From the NCBI RefSeq assembly GCF_024204685.1, contig NZ_CP100350.1, positions 1,364,001 through 1,428,000 of the forward strand: 64,000 nt of DNA. Direction: 5' to 3'. Under the pieces are notes generated by a model. It had not been told where the DNA came from. It saw only the letters and a program-made list of their open reading frames with translations, and did not search any database. Each line of letters starts with the position of its first letter. The stretch's first letter is position 1. Origin of the DNA: Gilvimarinus sp. DA14 (GTDB taxonomy: Bacteria > Pseudomonadota > Gammaproteobacteria > Pseudomonadales > Cellvibrionaceae). Positions 28,943 through 31,095 of this stretch are shown here, in pieces. The position numbers and the translations under genes were made by a program.

Positions 28943-29023
28943 ATAAAACAGCGACGAGTTGTAGAACACCGCCAGGTGTGCGTTTTCATGGCGTAGCGCG
29001 TCTTTGACGCGGGAGTCTGTATC

Positions 29024-29383
29024 ATGCCATCGCTGTATCAAAGCTCAACCGAAACGTCCGTATCCATATCCGGGCTCTACAGTCAGACCCTGCAACTGAC
29101 AGCCATCATGCTGCGTGAATCCGAGCCCGCCCTCGCGCGTTCGCTGAACGAGCTGGTGCACGTACAGGATCCACATGCAGATCACCCCATTGACGGCTAT
29201 TTACTCTTCGACAGTCTGGGCGCTGAACAAATCGGCAAAATAATCGCTTCCCTCACGTCTATTGGCAACAGCTGGCTTGCCGCGCCTAGCCACTCCCCCA
29301 GCTCCATGCGCTCGATGCAAGCCCTGCTTAAAGAATGGATTGAGCTTGCTGAGTGGCTGATCAAACACGGTGAAATACATTAG
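29024..29383 (+). CDS. Hypothetical small protein
   Basis: A 119-residue mostly helical soluble protein with no recognised domain. It has Ser-rich patches at both ends (ESSTETSVSIS-like N-terminus, SHSPSSMRSMQ in the C-terminal part). The ATG at 29024 lies in a weak context. The stop codon sits in an ATTAGTGTT sequence that resembles the end of the palindromic element next to it, so the C-terminus may have been set by that element. Coding status is likely but not certain. Confidence 0.55.
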   Translation: MPSLYQSSTETSVSISGLYSQTLQLTAIMLRESEPALARSLNELVHVQDPHADHPIDGYLLFDSLGAEQIGKIIASLTSIGNSWLAAPSHSPSSMRSMQALLKEWIELAEWLIKHGEIH

Positions 29384-29393
29384 TGTTCATAGC

Positions 29394-29668
29394 CCCTAGG
29401 GCCTGTTAACACTAATTAGATGCAGCCTGTTGCGACTAAAAATTTGCCAAGCAAGGCGCGAGGAGAGTGGTTTGGTAACTCCAAATGAACGACGAGCAAC
29501 GCAGAGTGGCGGATTTTTAGCCGCAACCCGAAGGGCTGGAGCCAGTTTTATCCCCAGCGTTGTTGCCGATCGCTTATTTGGAATAACCAAACTTCGCTCA
29601 CGGCGCCTAGCTGGAAACAAAAGTGGCTTCCAGCAGGCGCATCTAATTAGTGTTAGCAGGCCCTAGGG
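29394..29668. mobile_element. MITE-like palindromic repeat element, 275 bp
   Basis: The two ends form 30 bp terminal inverted repeats (29394-29423 and 29639-29668) differing at one position, each beginning CCCTAGGGCCTG or its complement and running through CTAATTAGATGC. Inside are further nested inverted matches: GTTGCG-CTAAAAAT at 29429-29443 against 29511-29527, and CCAAAT…GCAACGC against its complement near 29560-29581. No transposase is encoded. Short frames on both strands give similar peptides ending HLISV(N/S)RP because of the symmetry; they are by-products. The left flank (29381-29400) resembles the right end in direct orientation (17 of 21 bases). Confidence 0.75.
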
Positions 29669-29760
29669 TCTTTCGCCGTGACGGTTTTGCGTTACAATAA
29701 AAGTTCAGGCGCCATTGTATCGGACGCGCGCCTAAACCGGTATTAAAGGCAAGCCCAGCA

Positions 29761-30042
29761 ATGATCTACGTTTTGGTTGAAAGACACATCGCCGACGGTA
29801 TGGAAGGCAATTACGACTTAGCCGCACAACAGGCGCTGGAGGCGGCGCACCGAGCTCCGGGGTTTATCAACGGCGAAACGTTGGAAGACATACAAAGACC
29901 CAACCACCGCTATCTGTTGTCTAAGTGGCGCTCACTGCACGACTGGAAACAGTGGTACTACAGTGACGAGCGCCACGAAACGCTGAACCAGCTTAATCCC
30001 ACGCTCGCCGACTTTGAGAAAATCACCCTACTGAAAAAGTAA
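29761..30042 (+). CDS. Antibiotic biosynthesis monooxygenase (ABM) domain protein
   Basis: A 93-residue single-domain protein of the dimeric alpha-beta barrel ABM fold. It starts MIYVLVERHIADGMEGNY, continues AHRAPGFINGETLED and RYLLSKWRSLHDWKQWYYSDER. Such proteins include heme-degrading and quinol monooxygenases as well as uncharacterised oxidative-stress proteins; the residues seen do not decide. A TACAAT -10-like box lies at about 29693, just outside the palindromic element. It abuts convergent rlmM with no gap. Confidence 0.85.
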   Translation: MIYVLVERHIADGMEGNYDLAAQQALEAAHRAPGFINGETLEDIQRPNHRYLLSKWRSLHDWKQWYYSDERHETLNQLNPTLADFEKITLLKK

Positions 30043-31095
30043 TCAGCCTGTCACGCGAATATGCCCGGTGATTTCTTCGCGGTCATGGTACAGCTGGCGA
30101 AATGCTAGCTGTACATTCAGCTCATTCTCGGCAAACAGTTCTTGCAAACGCTGTCGCAGCTTAACGACCTCAGCGTAACGTTGCTTCATGGGCAGCTTTA
30201 AATTAAACACAGCCTCGCGAAACTGGCCCTGTACCGCCCGCTCACCAATCATTTGCGCCACGCGAGCGGGCTTATCGGCAATATCACACACCAGCCAGTC
30301 CACCGGCTTTTTAGGCTGGTAAACGAACCCATCCACCACATGATGCTTCACCTGGCCGGTTTCCATCAGCGACTCTGCCATGGGGCCATTATCGACCGCA
30401 TCGACAAACATGCCGCGATTGACCAACTGCCAGGTCCAGCCGCCGGGTGCAGCCCCCAGATCGATACCACGCATTCCCCCGGCCAGGCGCTCCTCCCACT
30501 CGACTGCAGGAATAAAATGATGCCATGCCTCTTCCAGCTTTAATGTCGCACGACTGGGCGCCTGCGATGGCTGACGCAGCCGCGGTATGCCCATCGCCCA
30601 GCGGGCGCTGTTTGCCACGGGAGAAACGCCCACCAGCGCTTCGGCTCCTGACAGGAACAATAAATGCAAACGCAATGGGCTGCTGGCCCTAAGTAACGAA
30701 CGCGCTTTTAAACCCTGAGCAAAAGGTCTGCTGAATTTTTTACTCAAGGCAGAGAGGGACTTGCCCTCGTTGGTATCAAGGGTTTCGCTCCACCAATCGG
30801 CGCAGCTGGGCAGTTTTTCAACTTCTGCCAGTAGCGGGGTCAATCGATCTTTGGGGTCAGGCAATGCCACCGCCTGACCGGCAAACCACTGGCGAGTAAA
30901 AATTAAGCTGGCAAAATCCAGCTCGCGTATTAACTGGTAAGCGCCTTCCGGCTCGTGCGTGACATAGGTCACCAAGGCGGTGCCGGGTTCGGCCTTACTG
31001 TAGCCAAAAAAACCGGTGGCATTCGCCAGGTCGGTAATCTCGGCGGCGCACTCTTTTTCAAAGCCCGGACGACAGTGCAAATACAGGTGGTTCAC
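30043..31095 (-). CDS. rlmM: 23S rRNA 2'-O-ribose C2498 methyltransferase
   Basis: A 350-residue protein (E. coli 366). It has an N-terminal THUMP-like region with LYLHCRPGFEKECAAEI, and a C-terminal Rossmann-fold methyltransferase with GIDLGAAPGGWTWQLV, DWLVCDIADKP and FNLKLPMKQRYAEV. It methylates C2498 in the peptidyl transferase centre. Its start overlaps the upstream hydrolase gene by 4 bp, in a yheU-hydrolase-rlmM operon. Confidence 0.96.
   Translation of the reverse strand: MNHLYLHCRPGFEKECAAEITDLANATGFFGYSKAEPGTALVTYVTHEPEGAYQLIRELDFASLIFTRQWFAGQAVALPDPKDRLTPLLAEVEKLPSCADWWSETLDTNEGKSLSALSKKFSRPFAQGLKARSLLRASSPLRLHLLFLSGAEALVGVSPVANSARWAMGIPRLRQPSQAPSRATLKLEEAWHHFIPAVEWEERLAGGMRGIDLGAAPGGWTWQLVNRGMFVDAVDNGPMAESLMETGQVKHHVVDGFVYQPKKPVDWLVCDIADKPARVAQMIGERAVQGQFREAVFNLKLPMKQRYAEVVKLRQRLQELFAENELNVQLAFRQLYHDREEITGHIRVTG

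Follow-up and report, generated by a model that had tools for sequence, protein, structure and literature searches.

A MITE-like element with a covarying pair of inverted hairpins in Gilvimarinus sp. DA14 and its relatives

MITEs are usually seen as deletion remnants of insertion sequences (IS) with an unimportant interior. NEMIS, ERIC and YPAL are 70-300 bp long and carry terminal repeats, and the accessible part of the same source describes MITEs as often transcribed, able to fold and affecting neighbouring genes (PMC3733652). MITEPsy1 of Pseudomonas syringae is gene-less, its ends resemble those of the IS5-family element ISPsy2, its targets are CTAG or YTAA, and its transposition has been seen, according to the available portion of its description (PMC3189936). 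R0, R2 and R178 of Pseudomonas fluorescens are dispersed intergenic repeats, the last being 101 bp long with 11-bp internal inverted repeats in the part of the account at hand (PMC2718517). The Paracoccus members of the IS427 group listed in the accessible part of a further source measure 832-865 bp and in most cases carry a direct repeat of 2 bp; two overlapping ORFs occur in part of the group (PMC3281130). A search of the open-access literature, with subscription papers and ISfinder outside its range, found no description of the element presented here.

The element is located in a window of 64,000 nucleotides (the whole stretch of DNA analysed, positions 1,364,001 to 1,428,000 of contig NZ_CP100350.1), to which all coordinates refer. 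It occupies 265 bp from 29399 to 29663, reads GGGCC...GGCCC, has no assigned strand and is flanked by the target dinucleotide TA on the left (29397-29398) and on the right (29664-29665). This boundary is common to the dispersed copies, other copies stop there, and the locus is empty in congeners. The palindromic element of 275 bp that the initial annotation had placed at 29381-29668 is real, but its limits are better drawn as given here. The element begins with GGGCCTGTTAACACTAATTAGATGC and its other end is the near-inverse. The left terminal inverted repeat spans 29399-29423 (+ strand), and its first 18 nt match the ends of IS5-family elements in relatives to within one or two bases; the right one spans 29639-29663 (- strand). 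The wider terminal arms, 29391-29423 and 29639-29671, comprise 33 nt at 94% complementarity, which agrees with the near-matching repeats of about 30 bp reported initially and with the terminal inverted repeats of a MITE. Short size and lack of a transposase gene, also typical of MITEs, apply as well: the ORF check of the interior bears out that no transposase is encoded, and the sole open frame spanning the element (+ strand, about 29430-29666) is spurious. The foldability that had been claimed is pronounced on the + strand, with z-scores of -8.9 (DNA energies) and -11.6 (RNA energies) against dinucleotide shuffles, none of which (0/200) equals the native fold with either energy set.

In the host genome (3.96 Mb, one contig) DNA matching found 11 full-length copies, a partial one and a single isolated end, and looser searches recovered further isolated ends or fragments. 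The full-length copies measure 271 to 385 bp including three flanking bases per side. The copy-number check proposed with the initial annotation therefore yields the multiple dispersed copies with conserved ends that characterise a MITE, namely 11 full-length ones and at least two fragments. At the locus itself the element is absent from seven of seven congeners, as judged from the region that includes the upstream gene and the ABM gene, in which searches for an end (up to four mismatches) and for the hairpin module described below were both negative; congener G007 aligns well across the unoccupied site. Two other insertion sites of the host are empty in both G003 and G007. Three of the 13 host places were compared in this way, and all three are unoccupied in at least one congener.

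Among 70 rows (69 left ends), drawn from the host's own genome, relatives and other genera, 52 are flanked by TA left and right. This represents the target-site duplication of a MITE, although the flanks at the unoccupied sites are too diverged to read the exact pre-insertion bases. Since the outer bases are other than C and G in 22 of the 52 TA-flanked rows, the duplication is TA and not CTAG; a 4-bp CTAG duplication was ruled out on this ground, in a sample that is itself biased to CTAG by 31 rows from loci found with a pattern starting with CTAG. Insertion would mostly take place at YTAR sites with duplication of TA.

As the initial annotation had pointed out, the left flank (29379-29396, + strand) resembles the right end in direct orientation, with 81% identity over 26 nt (29379-29404 versus 29646-29671), and the flank of congener G007 showed no such repeat. 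Perhaps it is what is left of an older copy whose end received the present element; tandem or nested copies at this locus are only possible. The upstream ORF (29024-29383) encodes 119 amino acids without a match in a Pfam search and has likely orthologues in congeners, where they lie beside the ABM monooxygenase gene. Its stop codon does fall in the junction, as had been stated, but was not supplied by the element, because the orthologue of the element-free congener G007 stops at the aligned TAG with the same terminus (...HGEIH*).

Isolated exact ends (CTAGGGCCTGTTAACACTAATTA) for which a search over 1.8 kb gave no second end were observed at eight loci (L110, L116, L119, L121, L122, L127, L132, L143) and are possibly remnants. 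At two of them (L132, L143), on inspection by eye, each of the two convergent genes seems to terminate within the isolated end.

The search for an autonomous partner with the same ends, which had been recommended initially, was successful in relatives (G024, G010, G181) and, with PF13340 and a Nitrosomonas europaea transposase fragment as queries, gave nothing in the host. The element ends match those of IS5-family (IS427-like) insertion sequences of about 800 bp; the IS found here measure 785-822 bp, encode PF13340 proteins and share the ends of the element. Two examples come from the host's family, a decayed IS of 785 bp in G024 and an IS of 803 bp in G010. Genome G181 exhibits five PF13340 matches, of which three were examined and represent IS of about 808 bp ending in GGGCGTGTTAACACTAAT, one base off the ends of the G181 elements. 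Likewise, an IS ending in GGTTCTGTTGACGTTT and an element ending in GGCTCTGTTGACGTTT, one base apart, occur together in G335. Nitrosomonas europaea has a partial IS at three contig ends, where a transposase C-terminus (PF01609, PF13586) is delimited by the end of the element. The ends common to an autonomous element that are expected of a MITE are hence present (decayed in G024, partial in N. europaea), as are the 2-bp direct repeat and matching ends of an IS427-group derivative. Only the ends were seen to agree, however; the 12 loci searched around such IS give no sign that the interior was left by deletion. In these searches, chance repeats in G335, G227, G181, G080 and G381 were not counted, and no pair of IS ends was obtained at L262, L268, L263 and L269. 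PF13340 is present in four of 56 relatives. The IS of G381 with this domain has ends that differ from those of the element, and the PF13340 IS copies of G010 (L188, L196) have these ends, yet no module match. Neither PF13340 nor the N. europaea transposase fragment matched in the host genome; the host copies may thus now be immobile, since no IS427-type transposase was found there. IS630/Tc1-type elements also use TA, and a partner of this type had been considered and was dropped after IS5-family elements with the same ends had been found.

The interior of the element is an inverted pair of ~107-nt hairpins. Module H1 extends from 29425 to 29531 on the + strand and H2 from 29531 to 29638 on the - strand, inverted relative to H1; a conserved mini-hairpin CCC-GAA-GGG marks their junction (29527-29535, + strand; helix 6, 97.9% of cells paired). 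The consensus of 24 diverse elements comprises a terminal stem, H1, the CCC..GGG mini-hairpin and H2. These 24 elements (set A1) remained from 70 rows, which were reduced to 61 by removal of L111, L159, L010 and lengths outside 255-320 bp, and then by exclusion of elements longer than 272 bp and of copies at least 90% alike to a kept one; set A2 leaves out two of the 24. Pairing amounts to 91.2% of cells compared with 75.4% in shuffled and 33-43% in slid controls, and two-sided changes occur in 56 of the 80 consensus pairs, in a structure that was derived from family members and to which the alignments A3 and A4 were fitted, and with counts that are inflated by relatedness. One long hairpin over the whole element was rejected as an alternative fold, because it pairs 76.8% of cells with a covariation score of 0.211, whereas the two hairpins reach 91.2% and 0.469.

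The covariance model R1 was built from H1 alone and gives 114.7 bits for H1 of the window, which is one of its 22 rows. It also matches H2, which was not used to build it, on the opposite strand and abutting H1 (71.2 bits). H1 and H2 thus represent a single module in two copies of opposite orientation. The 112 modules aligned to R1 show 95.9% of cells paired, versus 67.0% when shuffled and 35-41% when slid. Recurrent tandem G.A oppositions were read by eye in the inner loop. An element with two modules in direct instead of inverted orientation was observed at L213:1501-1704. Conservation as a structured RNA with covariation had been named initially as evidence against a MITE; the covariation is present, but mobility is not refuted by it.

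Which strand folds can be approached by comparing G.T with A.C oppositions. In the 65 top modules the ratio is 94 to 26, or 42 to 25 without one constant pair, an excess that is then weak, and by columns over all pairs it is 9 to 6; the 47 lower-scoring modules show 119 to 15 and, by columns, 16 to 2, all in a setting where G.T was counted as a pair when the structure was chosen and where relatedness makes p-values too small. Of 108 modules (four short ones were left out), 89 have a forward strand that is more stable than the complementary one when RNA energies are used, and 78 when DNA energies are used. Neutral change of double-stranded DNA predicts neither a G.T nor a strand bias, and the bias therefore favours a folded single strand. 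This suggests that the folded single strand of the core is under selection, be it RNA or DNA, between which the bias does not separate.

The module is widely distributed. Within the host's class R1 has matches in 69 of 369 genomes, the host among them, which represent 58 of 272 genera; in the sample of the phylum it has matches in 82 of 398 genomes, of which 47 lie outside the class. Among named records it was found in Ghiorsea and, by partial DNA match, on a Magnetococcus plasmid. Plasmid records contain partial matches to the element of the window (three records) and to L200 (six records), and L253 matches four records from Azotobacter, Pseudomonas and Halomonas over ~245-274 of its 391 bases, in most cases taking in the complete element; the rows of these plasmid matches name no annotated feature, the gene table being incomplete. 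A viral collection yielded one contig, which carries the element but no transposon, and two element copies used as queries found no match in phage records.

In order to compare core and ends, 58 loci, one per genome, were taken from the best-scoring R1 matches. Two gave no ends and three of the remaining 56 had poor arms, which left 53 elements for sizes, 46 of them being used for identities. With one element per genome, 33 of the 53 measure 264-266 bp and 40 measure 260-270 bp. Shortened elements of ~172-219 bp were observed at L217, L235, L243, L251, L211, L210 and L317. Mean pairwise identity among the 46 core-picked elements is highest in the inner motif (0.79), with 0.65 in the first 18 nt and 0.63 in the stem arms. 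Of the 1035 element pairs, 194 have ends that are less than 50% alike, and these pairs retain an identity of 0.78 in the inner motif. Elements that were picked by their ends harbor the module in 32 of 32 loci (10 used for R1 and 22 not, many from one species); here, with one module from each of 16 organisms, the identity is 0.65 for the inner part and 0.49 for the arms, the ends being alike by selection. Judged from these alignments, the core persists across differing ends, and in both samples its inner part shows higher identity than the arms. With respect to core against ends, each sample favours the part by which it was picked.

These observations bear on an alternative in which the element is an ordinary MITE and its pairing is kept by mutation alone, with template switching copying arm onto arm and no selection on the core. 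Long, near-perfect hairpin arms favour such correction, and the stem arms do vary much while staying paired. The partly unpaired inner part nevertheless surpasses the arms in conservation, G.T exceeds A.C, folding is better on the forward strand than on the complementary one, and the narrow size class of 264-266 bp takes in 33 of the 53 elements, each from a different genome. Arm correction by mutation would account for the pairing, but less well for the conservation of the inner part or for the bias between strands, and we regard it as unlikely.

Less likely still is a structured RNA, regulatory or terminator-like, that spread as a mobile unit and is kept mainly for its RNA function at gene ends. 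Covariation and strand asymmetry are consistent with it, as is the location of eight of the 13 host places at most 20 bp from the 3' end of an ORF (according to a simple ORF rule). No Rfam match of a bacterial family was obtained, however: the window region 29000-30100 gave no match at E up to 1, and the four matches from four other loci all fell below the gathering score and concerned miRNA or lncRNA families. The same loci are also empty in congeners, and the terminal repeats with TA make the element a transposon in any case. A palindrome pair of the REP/BIME type, moved by a tyrosine transposase (RAYT), is highly improbable. Two palindromic units arranged as an inverted pair in intergenic DNA do recall REP doublets, as far as these are described in the accessible part of the source (PMC3733652), but the element has long terminal repeats, TA on both sides, a size of 265 bp and ends common to IS5-family DDE elements instead of being a set of 20-40 bp palindromes without long terminal repeats.

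The reading that we prefer, with a probability of roughly 0.8, is a MITE that depends on an IS427-type transposase acting in trans and has a core that probably helps its persistence. The comparison of genomes establishes its ends, its TA context, the dispersed copies, the empty loci of congeners and the same-ended IS of relatives, and mobility is accordingly well supported at the level of sequence. The MITE reading of the initial annotation is upheld by the copies, their conserved ends and the same-ended transposons of relatives. It was nevertheless incomplete, as the interior is a covarying hairpin pair that is wide in the phylum and occurs also with other terminal repeats. According to the preferred reading, a DDE transposase, probably of the IS5 family and IS427-like, would recognise the ~18-bp end GGGCCTGTTAACACTAAT and move the element in trans. 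A single strand of the core, as RNA or lagging-strand DNA, would fold and aid the persistence of the element, either by helping transposition or by making gene-side insertions tolerable.

A bolder variant, for which the odds are somewhat unfavourable, would make the core the actual selfish unit: old, phylum-wide, folding as RNA or single-stranded DNA, and parasitising many IS427-type transposases, with ends diverging or being exchanged to match each resident IS. Owing to the inverted arrangement of the pair, either strand would then present a single correctly folded module when read. Three genomes (G335, G411, G203) each have elements with clearly different ends. In single linkage, 46 of 53 ends form one chain, so that gradual divergence of the ends is as possible as exchange.

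A structured interior in about one fifth of the sampled genomes of the class, including elements with ends less than 50% alike, makes testable the concept of a gene-less element with a working nucleic-acid structure that aids spread or host tolerance, and a covariance model is now available to annotate such elements. Compared by description, NEMIS, ERIC and YPAL differ in that a core common to differing ends is not mentioned in the accessible part of their source (PMC3733652). MITEPsy1 is unlike the element in its length of 100 bp, its 4-nt duplication and its other ends, and the available portion of its description does not mention a conserved double hairpin (PMC3189936). R178 of P. fluorescens, likened here by the accessible part of its description, might at a guess be one of these hairpin modules. 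The loci of IS427-type IS differ by the absence of the hairpin module, for which the 12 loci around such IS gave no match (E up to 10, default filters). The IS themselves resemble the IS427 group, as far as its source was available, in size and in the 2-bp repeat, and it is by these features, not by a tree, that they are assigned to it.
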